Program-made: the position numbers and the translations under genes
Source of the DNA: Xanthomarina gelatinilytica
GTDB lineage: Bacteria; Bacteroidota; Bacteroidia; Flavobacteriales; Flavobacteriaceae
Assembly (NCBI RefSeq): GCF_000348685.1
Contig: NZ_ANLA01000007.1
Span: forward strand, 62,001-126,000
DNA length: 64,000 bases
Direction of reading: 5' to 3'
Part shown: one piece after another, positions 12,146-55,690 of the stretch
Numbering within the stretch: position 1 is the first letter of the stretch
Layout of the letters: each line of letters begins with the position of its first letter
The notes under the pieces: generated by a model
Seen by the model: only the letters and a program-made list of their open reading frames with translations
The model's database searches: none
Told to the model about the DNA's origin: nothing

Positions 12146-12146
12146 C

Positions 12147-18437: not shown

Positions 18438-18476
18438 TTTAAAGGGAACAAACCAATTAAAAACCAAAAGTAAGGC

Positions 18477-19605: not shown

Positions 19606-19618
19606 AACAATCTTAAAA

Positions 19619-37738: not shown

Positions 37739-37741
37739 GAT

Positions 37742-38802: not shown

Positions 38803-38806
38803 GTTT

Positions 38807-39163
38807 TTATTGTTCCAATAAGCCATCTGCCATCCATTGAAGGATTATGTCAATTTGATTTTGAGCCATTCTTCCGGTTTGTGGCATCAGTCCTGGTTCA
38901 CCATTCTGTTTTTGAATACGATCCAATAAGTTGGTATTTAAAATTGCATCTTTTAGTAAGTAATAATCTGTTAAAGGTCTAAAACCTGCTACATTTCCTA
39001 TTGAGTGACAGCTTACACAATTAGTTTGGATTATAACTTTCACTTGTTTATTATAAGTAACGGACTCTTCGATCTGTAGCTGTTCTTCCAATTCCTGATA
39101 GGTATTGTTGCTACAGCCAAAGAGAACGCTACTTAGAATCATGACAAACATTTTCTTTTTCAT
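38807..39163 (-). CDS. Single-haem cytochrome c lipoprotein
   Basis: A 118-residue lipoprotein with lipobox Leu-Phe-Gly-Cys (Cys at about 17) and one haem c site, CVSCH, in TNCVSCHSIGNVAGFRPL. A Met in the segment GLMPQTGRMAQNQIDIILQWMADGL could be the sixth ligand. It belongs to the small cytochrome c/planctomycete-type domain group. It needs a cytochrome c synthase, which is present at 49964-53227. It is within the 40389-36953 gene run. Confidence 0.88.
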   Translation of the reverse strand: MKKKMFVMILSSVLFGCSNNTYQELEEQLQIEESVTYNKQVKVIIQTNCVSCHSIGNVAGFRPLTDYYLLKDAILNTNLLDRIQKQNGEPGLMPQTGRMAQNQIDIILQWMADGLLEQ

Positions 39164-39169
39164 AATTTT

Positions 39170-40012: not shown

Positions 40013-40389
40013 TCATTTATTTTTATATTATCAAACAGTTCGTCATAACCAATGTACCTACCTTTTATTTTTATAGGTTGGTTTATTTTTAAGGTTCTGA
40101 ATTTTAAATTGGGGATACATACAATCTTGTTATTTAGTATTATTAAAGAATCTTTTACGGCCGTAACAATACCTGTTATACCAACAATTTTATTTAAATA
40201 TTTCTCATCAAAAGCTTTGTTATCACTCTGAAACTCCATGTAAATTGCTTTTGCATCTATACTATATTCTTTCTCTATATATGTTATTGGGGTTGGAGGT
40301 TTAAGCATTTGTTTGTAATAAATAATACAGAAACCTGTTAATTGTAACAAAAGAATTAAAATGACTGTTCTAACGGTTTTTGCTTTCAT
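39991..40389 (-). CDS. OB-fold (tRNA_anti-like) membrane-anchored protein
   Basis: A 132-residue protein with one N-terminal membrane segment (about residues 5-25) and a C-terminal OB-fold of the tRNA_anti-like family: DAKAIYMEFQSDNKAFDEKYLNK (two strands), then IVGITGIVTAV, and GRYIGYDELFDNIKINECII. The role is unknown; it is not an RNA enzyme by itself. The ATG at 40389 is the first start after the terminator at 40418-40443. Confidence 0.78.
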   Translation of the reverse strand: MKAKTVRTVILILLLQLTGFCIIYYKQMLKPPTPITYIEKEYSIDAKAIYMEFQSDNKAFDEKYLNKIVGITGIVTAVKDSLIILNNKIVCIPNLKFRTLKINQPIKIKGRYIGYDELFDNIKINECIIESF

Positions 40390-40417
40390 AATATCTTGAT
40401 AGTTGAATAGCTTTTTA

Positions 40418-40443
40418 AAAAGGCGTCTTTCAAGACGCCTTTT
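40418..40443 (-). terminator. Terminator after the doxX-like gene
   Basis: A 12-bp stem AAAAGGCGTCTT / AAGACGCCTTTT (40418-40429 with 40432-40443), two-base loop, followed on the minus strand by TTAAAAAG. It separates the doxX-like gene from the 40389 gene run. Confidence 0.8.
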
Positions 40444-40480
40444 ACAGCTATAAACCAATAAGGGAAGAAATAATAAAAGC

Positions 40481-40864
40481 TTAATTCTTTGCTTTTATTA
40501 AACTGGAACTCGACAATTGTGCTAAACTAAAAGCAGCAATTGCCATTACTAGATCTCTTACTGCCACGTCTAAAAATGAACCACTAAAGATCAATGTTAA
40601 AGCAATTAATATTAACCACGCCATTACTACATAAGAACCAATAATTGGGCGCAAAAGCACTAATACCCCTGCAATTATTTCAATAATCCCTACTACAATC
40701 ATAAAGGTTGATGCTTCAAAAGGAAGCATATCAACTATACCTGATGATAGGTATTGTGTCCAATCTGTTAGAATATTTGCAAACTTATCTAAACCGGCTA
40801 CAATAGGTACAATACCAAATGTGTAGTACAATAATTTCTCAACTATTAAATTGTTCGATTTCAT
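40481..40864 (-). CDS. DoxX-like membrane protein
   Basis: A 127-residue inner-membrane protein with four helices, starting with the segment YYTFGIVPIVAGLDKFANILTDWT typical of DoxX/DoxD relatives. Some family members take part in quinone-linked sulfur or oxidative stress systems. It has its own copy of the shared ECF-type promoter motif (40895-40920) and its own terminator, so it is transcribed as a single gene. Confidence 0.85.
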   Translation of the reverse strand: MKSNNLIVEKLLYYTFGIVPIVAGLDKFANILTDWTQYLSSGIVDMLPFEASTFMIVVGIIEIIAGVLVLLRPIIGSYVVMAWLILIALTLIFSGSFLDVAVRDLVMAIAAFSLAQLSSSSLIKAKN

Positions 40865-40894
40865 TTTAATCTATTTTAATTTATTACATCCTTT

Positions 40895-40920
40895 GGATGC
40901 AAAAATTAATGTTAGGTTAC
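40895..40920 (-). promoter_or_regulatory. ECF-type promoter motif, doxX copy
   Basis: Minus strand TGTAACC (40920-40914), 15 bases, CATC (40898-40895). The CATC ends 30 bases before the doxX ATG. One of five copies with identical spacing; see findings. Confidence 0.8.
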
Positions 40921-40992
40921 AAAAAAGAGCAAAAGGTTCAAAAAATAGGTTATTGAAAAATGATGACATAAGCCTATCTAACTATTTTAGAG

Positions 40993-43326
40993 CTATTCAA
41001 GAATAATTTTCTTGATGTAGACTTCATTTTTATTTTTTGTTCTTATTCGTAAAACATACATTCCAGGCGAAAGATGTTTCATACTTAATTTATTTAACCT
41101 ATCAGCGCTTAAAACCTCTCTTCCACCAATATCAAATAAAGATATATTCGATATTGTACCATCTTTCAGTTTGATGTTTAGAATATCATTAGTTGGATTA
41201 GGAAAAACTTTTAAGTTTTGGCTATTTGAAACATCGGGTATACTTAAGGATTCAAGATCTATAGTGTAAGTCATTAGGCCTAGATCAAAACTTCCTATAT
41301 ATGCTTTTAAAGAATTTCCATCAAATATAAATGCAGATGACTTACCAAGTGTATGCAATAACTGTTGATTAGTAATGGTTTCCCATGTCCCGCCACTATT
41401 TATTGAATAATATAATTGAAAATCTGATGATAAAGAAGAGGTTGAAGTATGCGTTGAAGCCGCCATATGACCATTTACTTCCGTAGAAAAGTTGATTTTA
41501 TGAGTAACACTTGTTGTTTTTTGTTCCCAATGTTCACCTCCATCGGTTGACATAAATATTCCTTTTGTTGTAGCAATGGCCCATTCATCTACATTAAGTG
41601 GGTTGTTATCTATGTCATAGATTAAATCATAGTTAAGAATTAAGTTTTCCAAACCACTGCTGTTATTTTCCCAGGTTGATCCATTGTCTTCTGAAGAGTA
41701 CATTTCTGCGCCAATACTTAAAACTATTTTTCCAGAGTCTGAAATTAAAATATCATTGATAAAGTCATAAGCCGGTAAGTTAATGTTAACCTCTTCAACA
41801 TTATTCATGTCCGAAAAGTCAATTTTTTTCAAGAGAGTTTCAGCACCACTAAAGCCACCAAAAGCTGCCAAAATAGTATCATCTTCATTAGGATAAGCTG
41901 CCAATCCTGTAAGCTTATTTGCAAACAAAGAAATTAGCATTGATCTAGTACCTCCATTATCATTACTAACATATAAGTTTGAACCTATAAAACTTGAATT
42001 AAACGTAAACACTCTGTCAACTTGTGTTTTATCAGCTATTTGAGTTATGCCAAGGCTGTTAGTAGCCATGTTAAGTGGCAATATTTCATATGCCGTTTCT
42101 ATTCCCGTAGTCACGTCTCTATGAACATATCCAAATTGGGCTGAATAGTAAAGATTGATGTTAGAACCATCGTTATAAACATCCATATTTCCTGTACTAG
42201 AAAAATATGGTGTTTTAATCCAAGAAACGGTTTGCCCATTGTCAGAAGATATTAGAGGCACATAATTTCCCGTAATAACCATCTCATCCTCTTCAAATGG
42301 GTTAAAACTTACTTTTTGTCCATAATAATAGCTCTCGGGATTATCATTTAAATATAAATTATATTGCCAAGTGTTACCCCCATCTACTGATGTTACTATT
42401 TCATTTTCTTCTAGCAATACAATTTCAAGCGGGTTTAAAGGATTGTATTTGATATAAGTGATTTCATCTAAAATACCTTCAGTCCAATTCATATTTACCA
42501 CCGAAAAAGTATTACCTCCATTTGTAGACTTATAAAGGTTTTCTTGAGAGGCACCAAAACTCATGCCTGTACCCAATAGTATATTGTCATTATTTATAGG
42601 GTCGAAAGCAATAGGCCCCAAGATTACTCCTTCCAATTTTTCCTCCCATGTCTGACCTCCATCTTCAGAAACTAATAACCCTCCATCTATTCCTTGATCT
42701 CCAAAACCTCTTGATAAAAATAATTTATCAGGGTTATTTGGACTAATTGCTACTTTATTTATAAATACATTGCTGTTATTTGTCGTGTCATAAATTGGAT
42801 CCCAATTGGCGCCACCGTCATTTGTGAAAAATGTCATTCCATAGATTAAGCCATACTGGTCTCTATAATTTGTATCAACAATTAAAACATCTTCATCTTG
42901 TTTATAAAAATCATAATCCCATACAAACCCTTGTAAGTTCTGGTTTGGCAATGGAATATTTTTTGCAATACTTTGACTTGATAGGTCATAAACCATTATT
43001 GCTCCATCGTGACCAGCAGTTTGGTATACTGCAAAGCTTAACCCTGAACCATCTGGCATTAGTTTTAAATACCTGATTGATGCATCAGGTGGTAGAGGGC
43101 TATTTATACCTATTGGTAATGTATACAAAATATCCCATGACTCACCATTATCTTCTGAAACCACAATGTGATTTATTTCTGAAATAGCATAAATTTTGTT
43201 TGGAGTAGCAGGATCATAAATAAGATCAAAAATTCTACCAAAACTGTCAGAACCTTCATACTCGATTTGAGCAAATGACATTAACGAAAAGAAACAGAAT
43301 AATACTAATGTAAAAATTTTTCTCAT
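40993..43326 (-). CDS. Secreted BNR/sortilin-type beta-propeller protein with T9SS sorting domain
   Basis: A 777-residue exported protein. After the signal peptide (MRKIFTLVLFCFFSLMSFAQ) come many BNR/Asp-box units (S-x-D-x-G-x-x-W or T-x-D-G-G-x-x-W; for example SEDNGESWDIL, SEDGGQTWEEK, STDGGEHWEQK, SEDNGSTWENN) spread over residues 35-680, as in sortilin-type propellers. The C-terminus is a type A T9SS domain (VFPNPTNDILNIKL ... SPGMYVLRI ... KKIILE). Surface-bound or secreted; ligand unknown. Lies after the TPR-LuxR gene. Confidence 0.9.
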   Translation of the reverse strand: MRKIFTLVLFCFFSLMSFAQIEYEGSDSFGRIFDLIYDPATPNKIYAISEINHIVVSEDNGESWDILYTLPIGINSPLPPDASIRYLKLMPDGSGLSFAVYQTAGHDGAIMVYDLSSQSIAKNIPLPNQNLQGFVWDYDFYKQDEDVLIVDTNYRDQYGLIYGMTFFTNDGGANWDPIYDTTNNSNVFINKVAISPNNPDKLFLSRGFGDQGIDGGLLVSEDGGQTWEEKLEGVILGPIAFDPINNDNILLGTGMSFGASQENLYKSTNGGNTFSVVNMNWTEGILDEITYIKYNPLNPLEIVLLEENEIVTSVDGGNTWQYNLYLNDNPESYYYGQKVSFNPFEEDEMVITGNYVPLISSDNGQTVSWIKTPYFSSTGNMDVYNDGSNINLYYSAQFGYVHRDVTTGIETAYEILPLNMATNSLGITQIADKTQVDRVFTFNSSFIGSNLYVSNDNGGTRSMLISLFANKLTGLAAYPNEDDTILAAFGGFSGAETLLKKIDFSDMNNVEEVNINLPAYDFINDILISDSGKIVLSIGAEMYSSEDNGSTWENNSSGLENLILNYDLIYDIDNNPLNVDEWAIATTKGIFMSTDGGEHWEQKTTSVTHKINFSTEVNGHMAASTHTSTSSLSSDFQLYYSINSGGTWETITNQQLLHTLGKSSAFIFDGNSLKAYIGSFDLGLMTYTIDLESLSIPDVSNSQNLKVFPNPTNDILNIKLKDGTISNISLFDIGGREVLSADRLNKLSMKHLSPGMYVLRIRTKNKNEVYIKKIILE

Positions 43327-43399
43327 AACTATTGTTTTTAAAATTCTATACAATAGTCAAAAAAAATATTGGGAAGAGGCAAGGAATTTAAATAACAAT

Positions 43400-43427
43400 C
43401 GTGACATCAAACCTAAAAAACGTGACA
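43400..43427 (-). promoter_or_regulatory. Direct-repeat operator candidate
   Basis: CGTGACA occurs at 43400-43406 and 43421-43427, exactly 21 bp apart (two helical turns), 74-101 bases upstream of the BNR-protein ATG and just past the TPR-LuxR stop. This is the layout of a tandem regulator site. The binding protein is unknown. Confidence 0.5.
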
Positions 43428-43431
43428 ACCA

Positions 43432-45075
43432 TTATATAGATGATAAATAATTATATAATCCCTTACTATTTGGCAAATTTAATTTATCACTTACTCGTTC
43501 TTTTCTTTTTCGAATGGCCTCTTGAGTAACATTAAAGAGACTTGCTATTTCTTTATTTGACAAGTTCATATATAAGTAACACAGGTAACGCACATCATTA
43601 ACATTAAGATTAGGATGCTGCAATTTTAATTTTTTTAAAAATCCATTATTTACCTGCTCGAAATGTATCATAAAATCCTTCCACTCATTATCACTCTTTA
43701 ATAAAATTTTTAACTCTTTAATTTTTCTTGTTACCTGCTTACTTTTTAAGACTTCTTTTTGTTCTGTCAATTCATTTATAATATTATCTATGAGTTCATT
43801 TCTATTTGCTATTTGCAAGGCTTTTGTAGCTAATTTTCTATTTCTAGATTCGATTTCATTCTTTAATCTTTCTTCCTCCAACAAAGCCATGGTCTTTCTG
43901 TTTTGCAATTGCCTCTCAAGAATAATCTTATCATTTTCTTTTTTTTCTAATTCAAGAGTTATCACCTTTTTAAATTGGTTATGAATTATTTTTCTTTGTT
44001 TACTTTTTATAATACTGTTTCTCAACGCCCATGCTATAAGCAATAAAATTACAACGGACCAGCCTATAAAATAACGTAGTCTTGATTGTGTAAGCTGGAG
44101 CGATTTTTTATTCTGACTTAATTCATTTTTGTAATTTTCAATTTCAAATCTAACTCTAGCCGACTCAAATAGAGCACTATTTTTTAAATTGTTTATAGTA
44201 TCTCTGGTTGCTATTACTGAATCTAAAGCTGCAAACGCCTTATCGTATTCTTTGAGTTGCTTATTTAACTTTACAAGTTTTTGAAAAACCTGCAATTTAT
44301 TTTTAGGGGTCATAGAAACCTTAAGTGCATTTTCTAAATACTGCTTTGATCTTAACAAATTACCTTCAGACTCTAAAATATCAGAAATTAAGAGTAATAG
44401 GTTGAATTTTTCTTCTCCTTCAGCTTTCAAATCACTTAAAGTGTTTAAAGCCATAGAATTAGCCTCTTTTATGAGATTTCTTTTATAAAGATTTTCAATT
44501 CTAGCAATAGTACTAGAAATAGCTATTGATGGATAATTTTTAAGTTTAGAATCTGCAGTGTTTAAATATTTAATTGCTTTATCTAATTCATTATTCATGT
44601 TAGCTACAATTGCTAAATTAATTGAGTACATCCCTATTTTTTTATCATCACCTTTAAGTTGAGCCAATTTATACGCCTTTAAAAAGTAGCCTTTGGATTT
44701 AGCAAGTTCTCCTTGGTCAAAGTAAAGAATTGCTAAATTATTCAAAACTGTCATTTCTTCGGCTTTATTAAGATGTTCTGTCGATATTTTATATGCCTCT
44801 AAATAATTGTTAAGCGCTTCCCCATAATCTAACATTGAATAATAATTTACTCCAAGGTTATTTAATGCTAAAAATTGATATCTATATAATTTTTGCTCCT
44901 TTGATTCTACAAGTAAATTTGTTAATAGCTTGATTGATTTGCGGTAACTTCTATCTTTTTGGAATTTTAAAGATTGAAACAAAACACTATCTAATTCAAT
45001 TTCATTTTGAGCATGGAGGGCAGAGGTGAAATTAAAAATTGAAATATAAAAAACAATAAATAAGTATATTTTCAT
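43432..45075 (-). CDS. TPR sensor with LuxR-type C-terminal helix-turn-helix
   Basis: A 547-residue membrane regulator. It has a signal peptide (about 1-22), five to seven TPR units (about 40-320, e.g. LNNLGVNYYSMLDYGEALNNYLEAYKI region), one membrane helix (about 335-352, FIGWSVVILLLIAWAL), a long coiled coil, and a C-terminal LuxR/GerE-like DNA-binding domain (NVNDVRYLCYLYMNLSNKEIASLF ... QEAIRKRKERVSDKL). No kinase domain. This plan is common for Bacteroidota one-component membrane regulators. It may control the BNR-protein gene next to it. Confidence 0.9.
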   Translation of the reverse strand: MKIYLFIVFYISIFNFTSALHAQNEIELDSVLFQSLKFQKDRSYRKSIKLLTNLLVESKEQKLYRYQFLALNNLGVNYYSMLDYGEALNNYLEAYKISTEHLNKAEEMTVLNNLAILYFDQGELAKSKGYFLKAYKLAQLKGDDKKIGMYSINLAIVANMNNELDKAIKYLNTADSKLKNYPSIAISSTIARIENLYKRNLIKEANSMALNTLSDLKAEGEEKFNLLLLISDILESEGNLLRSKQYLENALKVSMTPKNKLQVFQKLVKLNKQLKEYDKAFAALDSVIATRDTINNLKNSALFESARVRFEIENYKNELSQNKKSLQLTQSRLRYFIGWSVVILLLIAWALRNSIIKSKQRKIIHNQFKKVITLELEKKENDKIILERQLQNRKTMALLEEERLKNEIESRNRKLATKALQIANRNELIDNIINELTEQKEVLKSKQVTRKIKELKILLKSDNEWKDFMIHFEQVNNGFLKKLKLQHPNLNVNDVRYLCYLYMNLSNKEIASLFNVTQEAIRKRKERVSDKLNLPNSKGLYNYLSSI

Positions 45076-45385
45076 GTTTTTAATTCAATTTAATTTTTGC
45101 GAAGAATATTTGTGAATTTAATGTTCTTTAATGTGAGATTAATTAGTTTGAATGAGACGTAATATACATATGCATTCTTTGATATAATAAAGATTATTTG
45201 ATATCTCCCGTTTAGATAACAAATAGTAATTCTTTTATTTTATTTATAACAATGATTTTCTTTCCTGAATTTTAAAATTAATCTTTTTTATCTGCAAAAT
45301 AGTATAACTAAATATTAATCATATACTTATATTAAACAATCAGTATTTAATTTAGATATTATCATGGATTAGAGTTAATTACAAT
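45076..45385. other. AT-rich intergenic region, no gene seen
   Basis: About 310 bases of very AT-rich sequence between the sigma-factor stop and the TPR-LuxR start. It should hold the promoter of the TPR-LuxR gene, but no convincing TTG/TAnnTTTG pair, TGTAACC motif or hairpin was found. Confidence 0.5.
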
Positions 45386-46057
45386 TTAAAATTTAGGCTG
45401 TGATTTATATATATACTCCATAACGTTTGCGACAATTCTATCGCATTTAGAATTACCAAATTCAAAAATATTTGTATAATCGGTTAAACTCAAAATTGAA
45501 TCCTTAAGCATTGTTCTAGCTCTATGCAAACGTACTTTTACGTTGCTATTGCTTAAATCTAAACATTTCGATATTTCAGAGATTGCCAACCCTTCAACCT
45601 CTTTAAGCATATAAACTATTTTATACTTTTCAGGAAGTGTGTCTATTGCCTTTTCCATAAAACAAGAAGATTCTTTGTACATAGTTTTGTGTTCAGGGGT
45701 CATAATGTTTTTGTCTTCAATTTGTAATATATTTTCATCTTGTTGCAAGGCAATGGTTTTTATTTTAGAAGCCCTTCTTTTCCTTTGCAAAGCTTCGTTT
45801 ATTCCAATTCGTATTAACCAAGTAGAAAACATAGCATCATTTTTAAATTGGTATAATTTTTCAAAAGCCTTAATATAAGTATCTTGCATAACATCTTCAA
45901 CGTCAGACTCTAAAACTATATAGCTTCTGATTGTTCTAAACAATAGTTCATTATTTCGGCGCATAAGAATTTCGAATAACTCTGTCTCACCATTGAGTAC
46001 TTTTTCAATTATTAACGCTTCTTCAAGTTCTTTTTTGGTTGTAGTGCTGGTATTCAT
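45386..46057 (-). CDS. ECF-type RNA polymerase sigma factor with C-terminal extension
   Basis: A 223-residue sigma factor with region 2 (LLFRTIRSYIVLESDVEDVMQDTYIKAFEKLYQF, then FSTWLIRIGINEAL) and region 4 (LPEKYKIVYMLKEVEGLAISEISKCLDLSNSNVKVRLHRARTML, given as one domain). The 40-residue tail carries FEFGNSKCDRIVANVMEYI, a conserved-looking extension. No anti-sigma gene lies beside it. The start at 46057 (MNTSTTTKK) follows its own copy of the TGTAACC-N15-CATC motif by 20 bases, which suggests autoregulation. Confidence 0.92.
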   Translation of the reverse strand: MNTSTTTKKELEEALIIEKVLNGETELFEILMRRNNELLFRTIRSYIVLESDVEDVMQDTYIKAFEKLYQFKNDAMFSTWLIRIGINEALQRKRRASKIKTIALQQDENILQIEDKNIMTPEHKTMYKESSCFMEKAIDTLPEKYKIVYMLKEVEGLAISEISKCLDLSNSNVKVRLHRARTMLKDSILSLTDYTNIFEFGNSKCDRIVANVMEYIYKSQPKF

Positions 46058-46077
46058 AACGGTATTATTTCTAATTA

Positions 46078-46103
46078 GATGCAAATTATTTTTTAAGGTT
46101 ACA
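46078..46103 (-). promoter_or_regulatory. ECF-type promoter motif, sigma-factor copy
   Basis: Minus strand TGTAACC (46103-46097), 15 bases, CATC (46081-46078), ending 20 bases before the sigma ATG. It lies head to head with the plus-strand copy at 46109-46134; together the two -35 elements form the 9-bp inverted repeat AAGGTTACA / TGTAACCTT. Confidence 0.85.
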
Positions 46104-46108
46104 TTTTT

Positions 46109-46134
46109 TGTAACCTTTTTTTAATGTTTTCATC
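46109..46134 (+). promoter_or_regulatory. ECF-type promoter motif, reductase-folE copy
   Basis: TGTAACC (46109-46115), 15 bases, CATC (46131-46134). It points to the reductase gene starting at 46198, giving a leader of about 55-60 bases. This copy has TTTT where the other four have TTG before CATC. Confidence 0.8.
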
Positions 46135-46197
46135 TAAAGTGAACAAGACCATGAAAGGTCGATAACTTATTACATATTTAATTAATAATCTATAGTT

Positions 46198-46863
46198 TTG
46201 AATTATTTAGCTACTGTACTGAATAAGACATGGTTAACCCCAAATGTTTTTCAGTTATCTATTGAAAGACCAGAGTCTTTTACTTATCAAATTGGGCAAG
46301 CATTAGAAATATCATTACATAAAGATACGGAATTTTTAAAAGCTCCTTTTACCATAACGAGTATTTATGAGAACGATAAAGACTTACAATTTACCATTAA
46401 AGTTTACCCAGAACACAATGGAATTACTGTTGCACTATCAAAATTAAAGGTAAACGACACCATATTAATTACAGATGCTTGGGATTCCTTTGCTTATAAA
46501 GGTGAAGGTGTTTTTATAGCTGCAGGATCTGGTATTACTCCATTTATACCAATACTTCGACTCTTAAATGAAAAAAATAAAATAGAAGGTCATAAATTAA
46601 TCTATGCCAATAGAACGGAGCGCGATATTATCTTAAAACAAGAACTCGAAACCATTTTAGGGAATAGTTTCTATAATCTATTAAGTAGAGATCATTTAAG
46701 CAAATATACTTTTGGACGGGTAGATTACGATTTTCTTTCTGACACCATTGACTCTACTCATCAATATTTTTATGTATGTGGACCAAAACCTTTTCTTGAG
46801 AGTATTAACAAGGCCTTGTTAAAACTTGGAGTAAACAAAAAATTAATTCAATCAATTTATTAA
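46198..46863 (+). CDS. FNR-family flavodoxin/ferredoxin reductase-like oxidoreductase
   Basis: A 221-residue two-domain flavoprotein. The FAD domain has APFTITSIYENDKDLQFTIKVYPE (Arg-x-Tyr-Ser replaced by Pro-Phe-Thr-Ile) and the NAD(P) domain has FIAAGSGITPFIPILRLL and FYVCGPKPFLESI. It is a paralogue of the protein at 54764-55453. The start is TTG at 46198; the frame is closed by a stop at 46186, and alignment to the paralogue needs the whole N-terminus. It is followed after 10 bases by folE. Confidence 0.88.
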   Translation: MNYLATVLNKTWLTPNVFQLSIERPESFTYQIGQALEISLHKDTEFLKAPFTITSIYENDKDLQFTIKVYPEHNGITVALSKLKVNDTILITDAWDSFAYKGEGVFIAAGSGITPFIPILRLLNEKNKIEGHKLIYANRTERDIILKQELETILGNSFYNLLSRDHLSKYTFGRVDYDFLSDTIDSTHQYFYVCGPKPFLESINKALLKLGVNKKLIQSIY

Positions 46864-46873
46864 ACCCTAAAAA

Positions 46874-47512
46874 ATGAACGGAAAAGAACAACAAGAAATC
46901 AATATTTTCTCTAACAATGAAATCAAGAACTTGGAAACCATATCAAAGCATCAAGAAAAATTAAAAACTATTGAGTATCATTTTGCAAAGATTATGGAAG
47001 CTTTAGGTTTAAAACTTGATGATCCGAGCCTAAAAGAAACCCCTAAACGTGTTGCAAAAATGTATATCAATGAAGTTTTTAAAGGGTTGAATGAGGAGAA
47101 TTTTCCAAGTATTTCCTTTTTTGAGAACGTCAGTGGTTATCGTGAAATGGTTTTAGTAGATAACATAAAGGTTTATTCATATTGCGAACATCACTTTGTG
47201 CCTTTCTTTGGAAAAGCTGCAGTAGCCTATATACCAAAAGACCGCGTTATTGGTTTGTCAAAAATAAATCGCATTGTTCAATTTTATGCTAGTAAACCTC
47301 AAATACAAGAAAAACTTACTGTTGAAATTGGCTTAAAGCTAAAGGAATTATTAGAAACAGACGATATAGCTATCCACATTGAAGCCAATCATCTCTGTGT
47401 AGCCTCTCGTGGCGTTGAAGACGAAAAAAGTTATACCAAAACAAATTTTTTCAGTGGAAAATTTTTAAAAGAAAAAGAAAAATCCAGATTTCTAAATTCA
47501 ATAAGCAGTTAA
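46874..47512 (+). CDS. folE: GTP cyclohydrolase I
   Basis: FolE converts GTP to 7,8-dihydroneopterin triphosphate, the first step to folate and biopterin. The 212-residue protein has the zinc ligands Cys104 and His107 region (YCEHHFVPFFG) and Cys175 (HLCVASRGVED), plus the signature GLSKINRIVQFYASKPQIQEKLT. It pairs with the upstream reductase under one predicted ECF promoter. This may be a second, stress-linked FolE, as the gene is in an accessory region without other folate genes; that is inference. Confidence 0.96.
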   Translation: MNGKEQQEINIFSNNEIKNLETISKHQEKLKTIEYHFAKIMEALGLKLDDPSLKETPKRVAKMYINEVFKGLNEENFPSISFFENVSGYREMVLVDNIKVYSYCEHHFVPFFGKAAVAYIPKDRVIGLSKINRIVQFYASKPQIQEKLTVEIGLKLKELLETDDIAIHIEANHLCVASRGVEDEKSYTKTNFFSGKFLKEKEKSRFLNSISS

Positions 47513-47526
47513 TTTTTAAAAAAAAT

Positions 47527-47552
47527 TGTAACCCTACCCCTCTTTTTGCATC
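47527..47552 (+). promoter_or_regulatory. ECF-type promoter motif, DUF4142 operon copy
   Basis: TGTAACC (47527-47533), 15 bases, CATC (47549-47552), 32 bases before the DUF4142 ATG. It comes 14 bases after the folE stop, so this operon has its own promoter. Confidence 0.85.
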
Positions 47553-47584
47553 AAAAGGTTGAACAATATTAAAATATAGAAATT

Positions 47585-48118
47585 ATGAAACCAAAAAGAA
47601 GAAATACTTTAACGTTAGTTTGTCTGTTGCTTTTAACAACGTCAATCATGACATTTGGACAGGAAGCACCAAAATTAATCGATACGGAAATAGCTTCAGT
47701 AGCGGTGGTTGCCAACCAAATTGATATTGATTATGCACAAGTGGCTCTTAAACGTTCTAAAAACAAAGATATTCTTGACTTTGCCAACAGGATGATAGAA
47801 GACCATAACGCAGTAATTCAACAAGCTGTCGCCTTGGTTGAAAAATTAGGTGTGAATCCTAAAGATAATGCCGTGAGCCAATCTTTATTAAAACAGTCTG
47901 AAGAGACTTTAGAAACCTTGAAGGAAGTTGATGAACATGATTTTGACAAAACCTATATAGACAATGAAGTGGCTTATCACAAAGCTGTAATTGATGCAGT
48001 AAACGGCTTACTAATTCCTGAAGCCAATAATACTGAATTAAAAGGTTTATTAGAAGCTGTAGTGCCAGCACTTGAGGCCCATCTAGAACATGCTAAAATG
48101 ACTCAAGCTAAAATTTAA
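47585..48118 (+). CDS. DUF4142 (ferritin-like) exported protein
   Basis: A 177-residue protein with a signal peptide (about residues 1-25, ending MTFGQ) and a DUF4142 four-helix domain: the segment VVANQIDIDYAQVALKRSKNKDILDFANRMIEDHNAV with the conserved Asp-His, then TYIDNEVAYHKAVIDAVNG and ALEAHLEHAKMTQAKI. The helices carry His and Glu residues in a ferritin-like pattern, but metal binding is unproven. It is first in a set with a cupredoxin and a di-haem cytochrome. Confidence 0.92.
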   Translation: MKPKRRNTLTLVCLLLLTTSIMTFGQEAPKLIDTEIASVAVVANQIDIDYAQVALKRSKNKDILDFANRMIEDHNAVIQQAVALVEKLGVNPKDNAVSQSLLKQSEETLETLKEVDEHDFDKTYIDNEVAYHKAVIDAVNGLLIPEANNTELKGLLEAVVPALEAHLEHAKMTQAKI

Positions 48119-48125
48119 AATTGAA

Positions 48126-48497
48126 ATGCAACCTCATAAATCATCAGTTTCAAAGTATTTATTACTATTAGCAGTATTGGTTTGCACCTTCATTCTAATG
48201 GCTGGTTTTAAAAACCCAGATAGATTACTTGATAGTAATTCTAATGCCACAACACACACAGTAACTATATTCCGAATGAAATATCATCCAGCACAGCTTA
48301 ATGTCAAAAAAGGTGACACGGTAGTTTGGATAAATAAGGATTTTGTTCCTCATGATGTTACCGAAGCCACTAATAAAAAATGGACTTCCAAACCCTTAAA
48401 ACAGGGCGAAAAATGGTACAGGGTTATAACAGAGGATATAAATTACTATTGTGATTTGCACAAAGTCATGAAAGGAGTAATAACAATAATTAAATAA
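48126..48497 (+). CDS. Cupredoxin (plastocyanin/pseudoazurin-like)
   Basis: A 123-residue exported blue-copper protein with an N-terminal signal/anchor (about 10-27). Type 1 copper ligands can be placed as His76 (FVPHDV), Cys109 and His112 (YYCDLHKVM) and probably Met115. The family shuttles single electrons in the periplasm. It starts 7 bases after the DUF4142 stop and is followed after 23 bases by a di-haem cytochrome, a possible electron partner. Confidence 0.9.
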   Translation: MQPHKSSVSKYLLLLAVLVCTFILMAGFKNPDRLLDSNSNATTHTVTIFRMKYHPAQLNVKKGDTVVWINKDFVPHDVTEATNKKWTSKPLKQGEKWYRVITEDINYYCDLHKVMKGVITIIK

Positions 48498-48520
48498 ACA
48501 TTAACTAAAATTAAATAAGT

Positions 48521-49801
48521 ATGAAAACAAAACAAATAGCAAGACTTGTTATGGTATTCTTTTTTATGGGATTTGTAATGAGTTGTGATAAGGATGACAT
48601 AGGATATGTACCAACACCAACACCGGGATTGCCACCAGGTGAAGGTTCTCTAAATCTGCCGCCTTTAAATCCTCAATTAGTTGCAGAAGGACAAGACATT
48701 TTTCGGTATGACACATTTGGAAATGAAACCTTTTGGACAGATGTGTTACAAATGAACCAAGTAATAGAATCTGCTGTAAGTCCTGCAACAGCCTTGAGTG
48801 TGGGACTAAAAGTAGATGCTGCAGCTTTACCGCAAGAAGTTGTTACTGCTATTCAAAATGGCGATGTAGATTTAAATGACCCACAAACTACTTTAGTTTT
48901 ATTACAATTAGATGCCGTTTTAGGTGTAAAAGGAGAAGTTAGTCAAAATCAAGATGGTAGTTTAAGTTTGGATAGAATGGGTATTACTTGTGCTCTATGT
49001 CATTCTACAGTTGATGATTCTTTTGCGCCAGGTATTGGAAATCGTTTGGATGGTTGGGCAAATAGGGATTTAAATCCAGGTTTAATAATCTCATTGTCTC
49101 CAGCTTTAGACCAAGCCACAAAAGACGTTTACGCTTCATGGGGTCCTGGGCTTTATGACCCAAGATTTAATATAGATGGTATAGACAATCCTGTAGTTAT
49201 CCCACCTGCTTATGGGTTATATGGGTTACCAAAAGCAATTTTTACTGGAGATGGTGATGTTGAGCACGAACCTGCTGGACCAGTTGCATATTGGAACAGA
49301 TATGTGGCTGTAACTCAAATGCGTGGACATGGGTATTTTGAAGATACGCGTCTAAATTTAGTAAGAGACTATAGAGAAGGTGATGATTTAGTTACAGATA
49401 AACTTCCAGCTTTACAAGAGTATCAGTTTTCACTAACCCCACCTGCTTCACCATCTGGTACATTTGATGTTGCTGCTGCTGCAAGAGGTAAAGCGTTGTT
49501 TTCTGGAAAAGCACAATGCGCAAGTTGCCACTCTGGCCCTCTCTTTAGTGACAATACGATTGATGGTAGATTGCATCCTCAAAGTGCATCAGTTGCTGTG
49601 GATAAAGATTATGTGAATAGATCGGCAACCAAACAATGGCGCGTTACACCTTTAAAAGGGATATGGCAGCACGCTCCATATTTCCATGATGGTTCTGCTG
49701 CAACATTAGCAGATGTGGTTGAAAGATACAATGAAGAAAACAGTCTTAACTTGAGCAATTCTGAAAAAACTGACCTTACAGAATATCTAAAATCTATCTA
49801 A
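48521..49801 (+). CDS. Di-haem cytochrome c lipoprotein (cytochrome c peroxidase-like)
   Basis: A 426-residue lipoprotein (lipobox Val-Met-Ser-Cys, Cys22) with two haem c sites: CALCH at 157-161 and CASCH at 333-337. The C-terminal half, with FSGKAQCASCHSGPLFSD and the segment RVTPLKGIWQHAPYFHDGSAATLADVVERYN, matches the MauG/cytochrome c peroxidase superfamily. The N-terminal FRYDTFGNETFWTDVL is seen in a less studied branch. Reaction unknown; a peroxide-linked role is an inference. Confidence 0.88.
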   Translation: MKTKQIARLVMVFFFMGFVMSCDKDDIGYVPTPTPGLPPGEGSLNLPPLNPQLVAEGQDIFRYDTFGNETFWTDVLQMNQVIESAVSPATALSVGLKVDAAALPQEVVTAIQNGDVDLNDPQTTLVLLQLDAVLGVKGEVSQNQDGSLSLDRMGITCALCHSTVDDSFAPGIGNRLDGWANRDLNPGLIISLSPALDQATKDVYASWGPGLYDPRFNIDGIDNPVVIPPAYGLYGLPKAIFTGDGDVEHEPAGPVAYWNRYVAVTQMRGHGYFEDTRLNLVRDYREGDDLVTDKLPALQEYQFSLTPPASPSGTFDVAAAARGKALFSGKAQCASCHSGPLFSDNTIDGRLHPQSASVAVDKDYVNRSATKQWRVTPLKGIWQHAPYFHDGSAATLADVVERYNEENSLNLSNSEKTDLTEYLKSI

Positions 49802-49849
49802 GGGGTCGGTTAGATATAAAGGGTATTTAATTAATTGTTATAGTTAGTG

Positions 49850-49906
49850 GCATCTCAACAGAGGTTTAATTCCAAAAGGCAATTAAACCTCTTAGAGATG
49901 CTTTTT
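49850..49906 (+). terminator. Two-part hairpin terminator after the di-haem cytochrome
   Basis: Outer stem GCATCTC / GAGATGC (49850-49856 with 49895-49901) encloses an inner 11-bp stem GAGGTTTAATT / AATTAAACCTC (49861-49871 with 49881-49891), then TTTTT. It ends the DUF4142-cupredoxin-cytochrome operon. Confidence 0.88.
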
Positions 49907-49963
49907 CAATAACAAGCAAAAGTTAACAAACAGAAATAAGAATAGTTAACGATTTAAAGTAGT

Positions 49964-52900
49964 ATGAAACAAGTTCAAAGGATTTTATTCTCAACACGAA
50001 CCATGACCATTCTTTTACTTGTCTATGGTATTTCGATGATGGTTGCTACTTTTATAGAAAGTAGTTTTGACACCTCAACAGCGAAGGTATTAATTTACAA
50101 CTCCATTTGGTTTGAAATCTTGATGCTTTGGTTGATACTAATTTTTACAACAAATATTAAAACTTACCGATTAACAAGTAGAGAAAAATGGCCCATTCTT
50201 ATTTTTCATCTCGCTTTCATTTTTATGTTTATTGGTGGTGCCATCACAAGGTATAGCAGCTTTGAAGGGCAAATGCCAATAAAAGAAGGGCAAACCACTA
50301 ATGAAATAATAAGTGATTTAACTTATTTTAACCTATCTGTTACTGATGGTGACAAAACTTTGAATTATAACAAGCACCCATATACGATGTCTTACTTTAA
50401 TTCAAAGGACACCAAATGGCCTTTAAAGAGAACCTACAAACAAAACTTTCTATTTGAGAATAAGGTGATTACTTTAAAAAGTTTGGATTATATACCATTA
50501 GCCAAAGACTCTGTTGAAGTAACAGAGTTAGGAAAAAAAATGCTCAACATAGTTACTATTGGGCAGACAGGTAGAGTAAATAATTACATTTCAGAAGGTG
50601 GCACTAAATCCATTAATGGGATGATTTTTAGTTTTAACAATCCTATAGAAGGATCGGTTCAACTCACTGAAAGAAATAATAATCTCTACATTGAATTACC
50701 TGTTGAAGGACAATTTATGTCGATGCTTGGACAACAAAAAGGTGTTGTTACTGACTCTTTATTATTAGCTAGACAATCCGGAACTATAAAAGCCGACGAA
50801 TCCACTATGCTAAACCACAGAGCACTTTATAGCGTTAATGGTGTTAATTTCATCATACCAAATAGTATTTTCAAAGGAAAAAGGGTGTATTACAAAGGTG
50901 ACAAAACTGAACCTTTGGACAAGAATTTATTAGATGTTGTCCAGATAGAACTGGAGTCTGGAAATATAAAAGATACACTATTTATTAAAGGAGGAAAAGG
51001 GGTAACGGGTTATAGTGAAACTACACAAATCAATGGCTTACATGTTTCCATTGGCTTTGGATCTAAAATACTATACACGGATTTTAGCATACGCTGTGAT
51101 GATTTTATACTTGATAGGTATCCAGGATCCAATAATCCATCGTCTTATGAAAGTAAAATAACCATAATTGATTCTGATAAAGAAAACCAACACCATATTT
51201 ATATGAACAATGTTGTAGATTATAAAGGGTATCGTTTTTTTCAGGCGAGTTATTTCCCTGATGAAAGTGGAACTATTCTCTCGGTAAATGCAGATAGATG
51301 GGGCACAAATGTGACATATTTTGGGTATTTTCTATTATTTACAGGAATGTTTTTTACACTGTTTTGGAAGAACACACATTTTTGGAAATTGAATCATTCA
51401 TTAAAGAAAATGCGCACCAAAAATTACATTTTATTGTTCATGTTGTTTTTTGGACTTGGAGCTACTAGTTATGCTCAAAACGATATATTTCAGCCTGAAG
51501 ACTCGCTGACATTACAACATCAAAAAATTGGCCCTAATACACAGTTTGCAAAACCAAATGAGCTTGGTTCCAAAAGAATCATTAATCTAGATCATGCCAA
51601 AAAGTTTGGACAACTCTTGGTTCAGGATTTTCAAGGGCGGGTTAAACCCATGGATACATACACTTTGGAACTTCTTCGAAAAATTCATAAAAAGGACATC
51701 TATAAAAAAGGAGATAATAATATAACACCTTTACAATGGTTTATCTCTATGCAAATTGACCCTGGTTATTGGGCTAACGAACCTTTAATTAAAGTTAGTA
51801 AAAAGGGAGGCGACCAACTTATGAAAGAAACTGGCGCTAATGCAGATGGTTACACATCATATACAAATTTAGTAGACTTGAATACCGGAATTTTTAAACT
51901 TGAAAATCAAAATAAAAATTCCTTTAGTAAACGTAAAGCTGAACAATCAAATTATGACAAGGCTGTTATAGAGTTAACTGAACGGTTTAATATTTTTAGC
52001 AATATTGCTTTTGGGTATTACACTAACATGATACCTGTAAAGAATGATCCATCACAAACATGGGTTAGCTGGATTTATAGTACCGAAGAAAGTCCTGTAG
52101 AGATAGATGAAACAGCTTATAGATTTTTAACCCCTTATTTTAATGGCGTAAAAGAAGGATTAAAAACCAATAATTGGACCAATGCCGATAAAAGTATTAA
52201 TGAGATTAGCGAGCTTCAAAAGACTTGGGGTAAAGACATAATACCATCAGATTTAAAAATCAAGCTGGAAATATTGTACAACCATCTAAACGCCTTCTTT
52301 TGGCTCATGATAGTTTATAGTTTTTTAGGCATGGCTTTGATTATAATTGGCTTTTTAGGAGTACTTTCTTCAAGTCCAAAATATCATCATTTTATTCGTT
52401 TCTCAACTAAAATACTACTAGGTTTAATGGTATTAGCATTGACTATTCAAGCATTAGCATTAGCCGTTCGATGGTATCTTTCAGGTCATGCGCCTTGGAG
52501 CAATGGTTATGAAGCCATCATCTTTATTTCAGGAATTGGCGTATTGTCGGGATTACTTCTTTACAAAAATCGAAATGCTTTTATACCTGCCGCTGGAGCT
52601 TTGGTAGCGATGATAATGATGGGATTTGCTCATGGTGGATCCATGTTAGACCCACAAATTACACCTTTGGAACCAGTTTTAAAGTCCTATTGGCTCATGG
52701 TGCATGTAGGCATCATAACCTCCAGTTATGGATTCTTTGGGTTGTCGGCTATTTTAAGTATCATTTCGTTAATTTTATACAGTATAAAACCCTCAAAAAA
52801 AACTTCATGTGCGATTAAGGAATTGACCATAGTCAATGAAATGTCCTTGACCATAGGCGTGTTTGCCTTAACAATAGGTACTTTTCTTGGTGGTATGTGG

Positions 52901-53227
52901 GCAAATGAGAGCTGGGGACGATACTGGAGTTGGGATCCTAAAGAGACTTGGGCTTTCATATCAGTTATACTATATGCCGTTGTTTTGCACTTAAGATTAG
53001 TCCCTAAACTTAAAAGCAAATTGGTATTCAATATCGCTAGTTTATGGGCTATATGGTCTATTATATTTACTTATTTTGGGGTTAATTATTACCTCATAGG
53101 GCTTCATTCATATGCTGCAGGCGAACCTATACCAATTCCTATTTGGATATATGTTACAGTTGTAGCGATGTTTATAGTATCTGTAGTAGCTTATTTTAGA
53201 AGTAAGAAAATTGGGATAAGATTATAA
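49964..53227 (+). CDS. Fused cytochrome c synthase ResB-CcsA (CcsBA)
   Basis: A 1087-residue membrane protein of System II cytochrome c maturation, which attaches haem to CxxCH sites outside the cytoplasm. The ResB half (1-470) has helices at both ends and a periplasmic domain; a middle soluble domain (about 490-780) follows; the CcsA half (about 780-1087) has the tryptophan-rich haem-handling motif WGRYWSWDPKETWA (about 983-996) and flanking His residues. It probably matures the haem lipoproteins at 38807-39163 and 48521-49801. Confidence 0.95.
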   Translation: MKQVQRILFSTRTMTILLLVYGISMMVATFIESSFDTSTAKVLIYNSIWFEILMLWLILIFTTNIKTYRLTSREKWPILIFHLAFIFMFIGGAITRYSSFEGQMPIKEGQTTNEIISDLTYFNLSVTDGDKTLNYNKHPYTMSYFNSKDTKWPLKRTYKQNFLFENKVITLKSLDYIPLAKDSVEVTELGKKMLNIVTIGQTGRVNNYISEGGTKSINGMIFSFNNPIEGSVQLTERNNNLYIELPVEGQFMSMLGQQKGVVTDSLLLARQSGTIKADESTMLNHRALYSVNGVNFIIPNSIFKGKRVYYKGDKTEPLDKNLLDVVQIELESGNIKDTLFIKGGKGVTGYSETTQINGLHVSIGFGSKILYTDFSIRCDDFILDRYPGSNNPSSYESKITIIDSDKENQHHIYMNNVVDYKGYRFFQASYFPDESGTILSVNADRWGTNVTYFGYFLLFTGMFFTLFWKNTHFWKLNHSLKKMRTKNYILLFMLFFGLGATSYAQNDIFQPEDSLTLQHQKIGPNTQFAKPNELGSKRIINLDHAKKFGQLLVQDFQGRVKPMDTYTLELLRKIHKKDIYKKGDNNITPLQWFISMQIDPGYWANEPLIKVSKKGGDQLMKETGANADGYTSYTNLVDLNTGIFKLENQNKNSFSKRKAEQSNYDKAVIELTERFNIFSNIAFGYYTNMIPVKNDPSQTWVSWIYSTEESPVEIDETAYRFLTPYFNGVKEGLKTNNWTNADKSINEISELQKTWGKDIIPSDLKIKLEILYNHLNAFFWLMIVYSFLGMALIIIGFLGVLSSSPKYHHFIRFSTKILLGLMVLALTIQALALAVRWYLSGHAPWSNGYEAIIFISGIGVLSGLLLYKNRNAFIPAAGALVAMIMMGFAHGGSMLDPQITPLEPVLKSYWLMVHVGIITSSYGFFGLSAILSIISLILYSIKPSKKTSCAIKELTIVNEMSLTIGVFALTIGTFLGGMWANESWGRYWSWDPKETWAFISVILYAVVLHLRLVPKLKSKLVFNIASLWAIWSIIFTYFGVNYYLIGLHSYAAGEPIPIPIWIYVTVVAMFIVSVVAYFRSKKIGIRL

Positions 53228-53310
53228 ACCATAGAACCGTATTAATAATTCTGGTTTTTAAATTATTTTTTTAAATAAACTAAAGAAAAGAAGTTGTCTA
53301 AATATTAACA

Positions 53311-54747
53311 TTAAACATCTAGATGCGTTTTTATTTTTTTAAGCAAATACAATAACAAGTCTATTTCTTGTTTATGAGTTCGAAAAGACAATATTGCTGC
53401 ACGTAAAGTTAATTTGTTATCCAAAATGGTTGAGGAAATAAATATTCTACCATCTTGGTGAATATAATCCAATATTATTTTATTAAGCACATCACTTTCA
53501 TATGCCTTTAATTCCAATCTAAAAGCTACAACGCTTAAATCTGGTTCACATAGAACTTTATAACCAATTATTGAAAGTTCTTGGTATAAGTAATAGGCCA
53601 ATTGTAATTTTTCATTTAGATATTCTGAAAAAACAGTATCCCCATATAATTTTAAAGGCAACCACATTCGAAGCCCTCTAAAGTGTTTACTTAATTCTGG
53701 AGATAAGTCAGCTGGAGAATATTGATTATCATTTTTCGCATCTCTCATGTAATTAGCATTATAACTATGAGCTTCTGCGAGATACTTTATATTTTTCACT
53801 AAAACAATTCCCAAACCATATGGCATAAATAAACCTTTGTGAGGGTCCAGTATAATGGAATCAGCAAGCTCCATTCCTTTAAGTTTATCCTTCCCCAAAG
53901 CTGTCAACTTAAAGAAGCCACCGTATGCCGCATCTATATGCAACCAAATATGATGTGCTTTAGCTATGTCGCTTAAATTTATTAAGGGGTCCACAGATCC
54001 AACATCGGTTGATCCTGCATTCGCTATAATTAAGAAAGGAACTAAACCTATATGTTTATCATGCTTGATTTGAGTTTCTAAATCTATTACAGACATTTTA
54101 AAGTGTGAATCAACAGGAATTTCCCGCAAAACACATTTTTCTAGCCCTGTAATCTTTAAAGCTTTATATACACTATGGTGCGTTTGGGATGTGAAATAAA
54201 TAACATTTTTTGAAACATTTGATATTGTAATACCTTTACTATGTTTGGCCGTATGAAGTGCAATTAGGTTTGCCATACTCCCGCCTGATGTTAGGTTTCC
54301 ACCAAAGCCTTTGTCATAGCCTATTAATTTTCCAGTCCAATTTATCAATGCATCTTCCATTCTTACTGCCCCTGGAGATGCATAAAACACTCCTGCATAC
54401 CTATTGGTAATAGCAGCGAGGTAATCCCCAAGAGCTGAACTATAAATTCCACCACCAGGAATATATCCTAAATGGCCACCAGAAGCTGCATTGAGTCCTG
54501 TATTTAGCACACGTTCCTTAAAAAACACAAGTATATCTTCTATAGAATTTTTCTTCTTATCAATATCAAAAAATGAATCATATTCTGTTATTTCATTTGT
54601 ATCAAAATGGAAAGCTTTCTGTTCTTCTATAGTATGAATAAATTCCTCTGAAAAATTAATTATCTTTTCATACAATGATTTTCTTTCAATAGCTGATTCT
54701 TCCAACTCAAAAATATTAGTAGGCATTTTTGATTTATCTTCTTTCAT
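53311..54747 (-). CDS. PLP-dependent group II amino acid decarboxylase
   Basis: A 478-residue decarboxylase of the aromatic amino acid/glutamate decarboxylase family. The PLP Lys is Lys304 in ILDPHKGLFMPYG, with Asp272 in HIDAAYGGFF contacting the ring nitrogen, and the segment TSGGSMANLIALHTAK at about 153-168. Substrate cannot be read by eye. It is 16 bases downstream of the reductase gene and so belongs to the unit under the ECF-type motif at 55484-55509. Confidence 0.92.
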   Translation of the reverse strand: MKEDKSKMPTNIFELEESAIERKSLYEKIINFSEEFIHTIEEQKAFHFDTNEITEYDSFFDIDKKKNSIEDILVFFKERVLNTGLNAASGGHLGYIPGGGIYSSALGDYLAAITNRYAGVFYASPGAVRMEDALINWTGKLIGYDKGFGGNLTSGGSMANLIALHTAKHSKGITISNVSKNVIYFTSQTHHSVYKALKITGLEKCVLREIPVDSHFKMSVIDLETQIKHDKHIGLVPFLIIANAGSTDVGSVDPLINLSDIAKAHHIWLHIDAAYGGFFKLTALGKDKLKGMELADSIILDPHKGLFMPYGLGIVLVKNIKYLAEAHSYNANYMRDAKNDNQYSPADLSPELSKHFRGLRMWLPLKLYGDTVFSEYLNEKLQLAYYLYQELSIIGYKVLCEPDLSVVAFRLELKAYESDVLNKIILDYIHQDGRIFISSTILDNKLTLRAAILSFRTHKQEIDLLLYLLKKIKTHLDV

Positions 54748-54763
54748 AAGTTATTTATAACAT

Positions 54764-55453
54764 TTAGAACTTATACCCTGTTTCAATGTAATCTTGATTG
54801 ACACCAATTGTTATTAAATGTGTTCTTACATCTTCTTCAAATTTTCTTGGACCACAGATATAAAATTTTTGATCAGTGCTTTTAACTAGTTTCAACAAGA
54901 AGACTTTATCTATTTTTCCAAAATAATGACTACCATATTTAGATCTACTTAAAATAAGTGACAAGTTAGAACTGAATAATTGTTTCAGTTTTTTATAAAA
55001 TATAACGTCATCTTTAGTTTTATTGGCATAAATTAGATTATGATCATGTTTGACATCAATACCTTTCCCTTGCAAATCCTTAAAAATTGGCAAAAAAGGG
55101 GTTATACCAGTTCCAGCAGCAATAAAAGTACCACTTCCATCATACTTATAGGAATCCCAAGCTTTGGAAAGTTGAATTGTATCATTCGTCAACAACTCTG
55201 AAATCCCCTTTGTTAGGCCATTTTCAGTTGGATAAATTTTTATAACAAATTCCAAATAATTATCTGTAGGTACATTGGCTATTGTAAAAGGAGCCACAGC
55301 CAATTCGTAACCTGGTTTATCAATACTTAAATCTACTGCTTGTCCCACATTAAATTCAAATTTCCAGGGCTTTGTTATTTTTAATAAGACGACATCATGA
55401 TTGACATAAGTAACCTGAATTACTTTTGCTTTATAAGGAAAAATAAGGCCCAT
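54764..55453 (-). CDS. Second FNR-family flavodoxin/ferredoxin reductase-like oxidoreductase
   Basis: A 229-residue flavoprotein clearly paralogous to the one at 46198-46863: APFTIANVPTDNYLEFVIKIYPTENGLTKGISEL (FAD domain), FIAAGTGITPFLPIFKDL and FYICGPRKFEEDV (nucleotide domain). ATG at 55453. A copy of the shared ECF-type motif lies 30 bases upstream. The two paralogues in one predicted regulon suggest two electron acceptors, which is inference. Confidence 0.88.
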   Translation of the reverse strand: MGLIFPYKAKVIQVTYVNHDVVLLKITKPWKFEFNVGQAVDLSIDKPGYELAVAPFTIANVPTDNYLEFVIKIYPTENGLTKGISELLTNDTIQLSKAWDSYKYDGSGTFIAAGTGITPFLPIFKDLQGKGIDVKHDHNLIYANKTKDDVIFYKKLKQLFSSNLSLILSRSKYGSHYFGKIDKVFLLKLVKSTDQKFYICGPRKFEEDVRTHLITIGVNQDYIETGYKF

Positions 55454-55483
55454 GAGTTTTCTGTTTAGTTGATTTATTAATTT

Positions 55484-55509
55484 GATGCAATTTTACCATG
55501 TAGGTTACA
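55484..55509 (-). promoter_or_regulatory. ECF-type promoter motif, second reductase copy
   Basis: Minus strand TGTAACC (55509-55503), 15 bases, CATC (55487-55484), ending 30 bases before the ATG at 55453. Fifth copy of the motif. Confidence 0.85.
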
Positions 55510-55690
55510 AACTGAATAAACGGAACATTACAAAGGCTTCCCAATCTTTTAAATTTTATATTTAGTTATACATGATTAGTTTTTTGAAATAAACAAATTG
55601 TTTTCAATACGGGTCGAAATCATCTTAAGATGGGTGGGACATGAGAAGCGCATAAAACCGAAAAATGCAGTTAAACATAAGGATATAAGC

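Follow-up and report, generated by a model that had tools for sequence, protein, structure and literature searches.

We analyzed a 64,000-nucleotide (nt) stretch of the Xanthomarina gelatinilytica genome (contig NZ_ANLA01000007.1, positions 62,001 to 126,000; hereafter the window), which holds a gene for an extracytoplasmic function (ECF) sigma factor and five copies of one promoter-like motif, TGTAACC followed by exactly 15 bases and CATC. P1 (40893..40921, minus strand, ending in CATCCAA) lies before a gene for a DoxX-like small membrane protein (40481..40864, minus). P2 (46075..46103, minus, CATCTAA) is the sigma gene's own (45386..46057, minus), while P3 (46109..46137, plus, CATCTAA) faces it across 5 bp and precedes a first FAD/NAD(P) reductase (46198..46863, plus) and folE, encoding GTP cyclohydrolase I (46874..47512, plus). 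P4 (47527..47555, plus, CATCAAA) stands before genes for a DUF4142 protein (47585..48118), a plastocyanin/amicyanin-like cupredoxin (48126..48497; the H, C, H, and M ligands are preserved in the alignment), and a di-haem cytochrome c distantly related to the peroxidase/MauG type (48521..49801; two CxxCH motifs), all on the plus strand. Finally, P5 (55481..55509, minus, CATCAAA) precedes a second FAD/NAD(P) reductase (54764..55453, minus) and a pyridoxal phosphate (PLP)-dependent decarboxylase (53311..54747, minus).

These five sites had been proposed in an earlier reading of the same DNA (the original prediction), and all are present with a spacer of 15 bases. Four of the coordinate pairs given there are right (46103-46078, minus; 46109-46134, plus; 47527-47552, plus; and 55509-55484, minus), and the first was one base off, i.e. 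the site lies at 40921-40896 (minus) and not at 40920-40895. Each site aims at a nearby gene start as claimed, with 31, 20, 63, 32, and 30 nt between CATC and the start codon at P1–P5, respectively, the 63 nt of P3 being counted to a TTG start. For the sigma gene, the open reading frame (ORF) opens at a TTG at 46084, and the ATG at 46057 was chosen from the distance to P2 and the alignment. The gene labels also hold, the marginal one being "doxX-like": against the DoxX model (PF07681, cut-off 23.6) this protein scores 16.7 bits and its best homologue 23.2. All five sites run on as CATC-H-AA, and the putative −10 element is better written CATCHAA than CATC.

When the window was shuffled 100 times, with spacers of 13–17 bases pooled, a mean of 0.17 matches was obtained and no shuffle reached five. 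The same N13–17 pattern has 19 matches in the 3.05-Mb genome, and spacer 15 is found only at these five, with a single match for the reversed pattern used as a control at that spacing. A chance rate of occurrence, which would have counted against the motif, is thus not what the genome holds. Because its only five exact copies all sit in one block, the regulon is compact (14.6 kb) rather than "scattered," as it had been described. Keeping CATC and freeing the seventh base (TGTAAC-N16-CATC) gives nine exact matches in the genome, including the five block sites, and the full motif TGTAACC-N15-CATCHAA has five exact matches, four with one mismatch, and 110 with two, 21 of these 110 with assigned positions. 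None of the four one-mismatch sites is convincingly placed for a promoter: three lie within ORFs, and the other has no start of an ORF of at least 80 amino acids (aa) within 250 nt. Of nine looser sites in this genome, five lie within ORFs and the others precede no sizeable gene; one is 96 nt from a 66-aa ORF.

A profile made from six sigma factors led to 79 named loci (1.52 Mb) from flavobacteria, Pontibacter, other Bacteroidota, and one metagenome-assembled genome labelled Ignavibacteriae; with the window and six more, these make 86 loci. In the 79 loci, TGTAACC-Nn-CATC has 92 matches at n = 15, spread over 43 of them, and between zero and six at every other n from 8 to 24. Across the 86, 134 of the 156 TGTAAC-N16-[CA]ATC sites precede regulon families (54 sigma, 33 DoxX, 18 reductase, 18 DUF4142, 7 di-haem cytochrome, and 4 folE), while 17 are out of range of any gene start and 5 precede other genes. 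As a side observation, strict sites on the far side of Muricauda-type loci (L167 2595 and L173 3627) precede, by 137–153 nt, genes whose products are similar multi-membrane-span proteins; the site sequence is identical in three genomes, and this is a possible extra target.

A tree was built from 77 sigma genes that passed a filter for a C-terminal tail motif described below. Of these, 66 have TGTAAC-N16-NATC upstream, and in the window's clade (19 rows, support 95) all 19 sigma genes bear the exact C/C motif in their own promoter. The loci of this clade hold 65 strict sites, 62 of them at −80 to 200 nt from a gene start and 1 in an ORF longer than 120 aa. Both A of CATCHAA, positions that were outside the search pattern, are invariant at all 64 clade sites with full flanks. 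The TTG noted earlier before CATC is correct for four of the five window sites, and a G precedes CATC at only 40 of the 64. Two Flavobacterium rows sister to the clade have 16 bases instead of 15 and no exact form. The strict motif is a clade trait that the wider family varies (TGTAACT, [TCA]ATCT). Algibacter pacificus (L220) and genome G247 (L222) have five sites each and G258 (L223) has four, before the corresponding genes: P1 equivalents precede DoxX in L220 and L222, P4 equivalents occur in all three, and P5 equivalents read TGTAACC in L220 and TGTAACT in L222 and L223. In G258, a P3-type site lies directly before folE. Between the window and A. pacificus, the P2 and P5 spacer sequences differ and the boxes are unchanged.

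The motif also tracks the sigma gene, a check that the original prediction had proposed for relatives, with enrichment in genomes that have a close sigma and near-control rates in those that lack it. Among 60 relatives, the two with a close sigma have 9 matches vs 2 in the control, and the 52 without have 49 vs 44. Twenty genomes chosen for this sigma or a near relative have 107 matches vs 33; of the 107, 69 lie no more than 15 kb from the sigma gene, so that the remaining 38 about equal the control figure. We also cross-tabulated the full motif by hand over 299 genomes of the family. Full motifs number 25 (2–5 each) in the seven genomes whose sigma is at least 62% identical, 12 in the 19 with only a 45–55% sigma, several of them beside the sigma gene (e.g. 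in G280, G129, and G327), and 36, at most two per genome, in the 273 lacking a close sigma; the reversed control finds 27 in all 299. Only nine sigma candidates were scored per genome in this set, and a few sigmas may therefore be missed. In 12 selected stretches from sigma-bearing genomes, we placed 14 outside matches; 4 of them come before genes of regulon families (a reductase, a DoxX, and a second sigma together with its own DoxX) and 6 are within longer ORFs. Another sigma of the X. gelatinilytica genome might read P1–P5, as 26 sigma-like reading frames were seen there at first look and a second sigma lies in the window at 18477-19028. Given that the motif sits on the sigma gene at 45386-46057, moves with it, and is enriched only with its clade, it is most improbable that another ECF sigma is responsible.

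Homologues of this sigma with less than 60% identity are found in 230 plasmid records, mostly from Rhizobium and Sinorhizobium, with 33–38% identity for most of the 40 listed among them. In 14 plasmid loci, mainly proteobacterial, GGGAACC-N15-CATC has 13 sites in nine loci, often near DUF4142 and cupredoxin genes, and zero or one at any other spacing from 8 to 24, and the TGTAAC form at spacing 16 is absent from the 14 loci searched. With N15-CATC shared and GGGAACC vs TGTAACC before it, the promoter geometry therefore appears common across phyla, with the outer −35 bases differing. Twelve of these loci are annotated, and they include DUF4142 (six), cupredoxin-type proteins (six), folE (two), truncated haemoglobin (two), cbb3 oxidase (two), and NnrS (one). 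Four Rhizobium records have the order DUF4142-cupredoxin-sigma.

We consider it very probable that the five sites are promoters read by the ECF sigma of 45386-46057, which would drive its own gene and four further units. Sequence comparison establishes the motif and its fixed spacing, as well as its recurrence before the same families and its co-occurrence with the sigma gene, and from these we infer both the binding of the sigma to the motif and the extents of the operons; the claim that this sigma drives the set is likewise supported by the comparative evidence. Several observations weigh on the other side. At up to two mismatches, the full motif has 119 matches in its own genome vs 80 in the control, an excess of weak sites that leaves room for minor targets elsewhere. 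Six of the 60 relatives, with only a 45–55% sigma, have 6 strict matches vs 15 in the control; the promoters of such sigmas are mostly TGTAACT, with T, C, or A for the first C of CATC. In addition, the upstream scan showed no TGTAAC-N16-NATC for 11 of the 77 sigma genes, and 5 of the 14 plasmid loci lack the GGGAACC form, among these both with folE. Finally, the recurrence of the motif is in part common descent of one block.

Under the sigma-driven scheme, the sigma would read TGTAACC and CATCHAA, 15 bp apart, as −35 and −10 elements. ECF sigma factors typically recognize a −35 that contains AAC, often at their own promoter, and by comparative genomics this sigma may do so too. At P2 it would boost its own synthesis, i.e. 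a putative positive autoregulation. Transcription from P3 would cover the first reductase and folE; that from P4 the DUF4142, cupredoxin, and di-haem cytochrome genes and perhaps a cytochrome assembly gene; that from P5 the second reductase and the decarboxylase; and that from P1 the DoxX-like gene and up to six genes downstream.

P2 and P3 together form an inverted repeat, GGTTACA-N5-TGTAACC (46097..46115), made of two facing −35 elements. Divergent pairs within 500 bp number 62, of which 56 have 3–7 bp between the TGT ends and 6 have 166–352; the gap is 5 bp in 22 pairs and 6 bp in 29, i.e. 51 of the 56. Since the divergent partner of the sigma gene varies (DoxX, folE, or reductase), this gap is kept with unlike neighbors. 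Three facing pairs occur in the plasmid loci, with 12–14 bp between. Common descent accounts for part of the fixed gap, and a functional limit is also suggested, perhaps mutual exclusion of two polymerases. The near-fixed gap would equally suit a dimeric repressor or activator, with TGTAACC as its half-site, GGTTACA-N5/6-TGTAACC as its operator, and CATC incidental. This is very unlikely, as P1, P4, and P5 are single half-sites that always have CATCHAA at the same distance and point at a gene, and such strict spacing is that of a promoter, although a dimer operator may hold alongside reading by the sigma.

The sigma protein has both ECF regions, with scores above the cut-offs for region 2 (PF04542, 43 bits, cut-off 24) and region 4 (PF08281, 49.5, cut-off 25.7), matches SigE, SigW, and SigH in the PDB, and passes the NCBIfam model NF008888 (PRK11922) with 217.3 bits vs a curated 204. 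PRK11922 has no mention in the open-access literature searched, nor was a regulon or promoter for it found there. A sigma was scored in 84 of the 86 loci. In 48 of these, the gene that follows it shares its strand and most commonly belongs to DoxX (9) or a helicase-like cluster (4). No conserved same-strand anti-sigma gene or small ORF lies beside the sigma in these 84 loci, an unlinked anti-sigma not having been searched for; a 69-aa ORF recurs behind the sigma in six. Behind paralogous sigmas in L082, L085, L089, L112, L122, and L044, a conserved 68–69-aa ORF is DUF2945-like by eye, and DUF2945 is annotated near the plasmid sigmas of L176 and L179. Given the lack of a conserved anti-sigma beside the gene, the activity of the sigma is probably set by another route. 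Its C-terminal tail (FEFGNSKCD) follows the pattern F-x-F-x4-C, and C214 is invariant across all 38 sequences aligned; these come from Bacteroidota, Proteobacteria, and one planctomycete and were not chosen by their tail. This cysteine tail possibly sets the sigma's activity; in the predicted structure (predicted template modelling score, pTM, 0.40) the tail is poorly predicted. Some genomes (L051, L058, and L164) have two or three sigmas of the family, all with a TGTAAC promoter of their own, and the base that follows TGTAAC, C or T, may keep these sigmas insulated from one another.

Behind the DoxX-like gene, six genes (36953..40458, minus) follow that overlap or lie no more than 22 bp apart: OB-fold-like, DUF5777 barrel, cytochrome c, YceI, ankyrin, and DOMON with a type IX secretion system (T9SS) domain. 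Their order is kept in A. pacificus (L221), and they probably complete the P1 operon. A homologue of the DoxX-like protein is present in 62 of the 86 loci, and a PDB sequence search with it gave no match. Behind DoxX in L053, L054, L057, and L061 (Muricauda/Flagellimonas), an operon resembling a cbb3-type oxidase (clusters 47–50) was seen by eye. Between the sigma and DoxX-like genes, 40993-45075 encodes a BNR/T9SS protein and a TPR-LuxR-type protein and has no exact site; in A. pacificus, DoxX comes directly after the sigma gene, and these genes look like an insertion into the regulon. On the P4 side, a ResB/CcsA-type cytochrome c assembly gene (49964..53227, plus) has no site of its own, starts 162 bp behind the di-haem gene, travels with the block, and is perhaps, as an unproven member, part of the P4 unit.

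The block also differs from its surroundings. Compared with A. pacificus, a member of the same family with a different genus code, window positions 45386-55515 are 90.9% identical and 40412-40962 are 91.9% identical, whereas positions 1-20000 reach 67–78% and the distal P1 genes 72%. High identity stops six bases beyond P5 at one edge and at the stop codon of the sigma gene at the other. GC content is 0.29–0.35 over 36–57 kb vs 0.37–0.42 before, and the window has no tRNA genes. The block identity of about 91% against 67–78% elsewhere, together with the low GC, therefore makes it look likely that the regulon was transferred recently between genera as a unit, and the low-GC stretch (36000-57000) is the probable transferred island.

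Going by gene names only, i.e. periplasmic carriers (cupredoxin and cytochromes), a peroxidase-like di-haem protein, cytochrome assembly, flavin reductases, folE, and the DoxX-like protein, to which the proteobacterial neighbors add globin, NnrS, and cbb3, we infer a role for the set in extracytoplasmic electron transfer and in redox or haem-copper stress. General envelope redox stress is a reasonably probable signal, and nitric oxide (NO) or haem-copper poisoning specifically is a doubtful one. Excerpts of a paper on methylolanthanin describe DUF4142 as a periplasmic, ferritin-like protein and include a siderophore-type sigma/anti-sigma pair. In the PDB, the DUF4142 protein of the window matches one designed filament (E 0.0005), which is not meaningful. 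The regulon could also stand unchanged with an excess of copper or another metal as its signal: it includes a cupredoxin, the DUF4142 protein weakly resembles the CopM metallochaperone (E 0.00032, below cut-off), and a copper-responsive ECF factor, CorE, is known (PMC3107203, in excerpt). We hold this serious rival to be rather unlikely, as the genes behind the five sites include no copper exporter or copper chaperone of a named family. The tail of the sigma has one invariant cysteine and no cluster, and CorE reportedly has a cysteine-rich C-terminal part. More speculative, and improbable as a whole, is an ECF family without anti-sigma that spans phyla, in which the tail cysteine would sense NO, haem-copper, or the thiol redox state and the facing pair, by its 5–6 bp gap, would admit one polymerase at a time, such that the sigma splits its output between self-synthesis and the first target.

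The phylum's alternative sigma factors are little mapped, and a family of sigmas that has a curated model and no open-access paper found now gains a sequence-defined candidate promoter code and a list of candidate targets. The facing geometry and the invariant cysteine pose the question of how an ECF sigma with no visible anti-sigma is restrained, and a regulon seemingly mobile between genera in one piece is a candidate portable expression part. The original prediction knew of no described system, in agreement with the open-access literature (subscription journals being outside this scope), where we found none with a sigma and a TGTAACC-N15-CATC promoter; excerpts of PMC6180224, PMC10880074, PMC11317620, and PMC12322963 do not describe one. 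Excerpts of a paper on Sinorhizobium ECF factors, whose targets are unlike those of the window, mention no GTAAC, DoxX, cupredoxin, or DUF4142. Among the nearest likenesses is ECF16 (Caulobacter SigF-NrsF and Bradyrhizobium EcfF-OsrA), which, in the parts of PMC3420878 and PMC3511200 consulted, shares the −35 tGTAACc and, in Caulobacter, a small compact regulon with a DoxX gene. There, however, the −10 is CGAA at N16, as opposed to CATCHAA at N15, and NrsF/OsrA act as anti-sigma; NrsF (PF06532, DUF1109) has no match in the X. gelatinilytica genome, with Caulobacter detected as a control. On these grounds, we rejected membership in ECF16. Autoregulation was shown for EcfF and is predicted at P2. 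In the same family as X. gelatinilytica, ECF promoters were mapped for SM6 in Flavobacterium psychrophilum, which differs in its −10 CGT box, its T9SS genes, and the presence of an anti-sigma gene (PMC9723704, in excerpt). RpoE2 of Haemophilus influenzae, likened here by description and not by sequence, has a co-transcribed 67-aa anti-sigma and targets msrAB, and, according to excerpts of PMC7907618, resembles the window's system in its envelope redox-repair genes and its operon with a DoxX-like gene.

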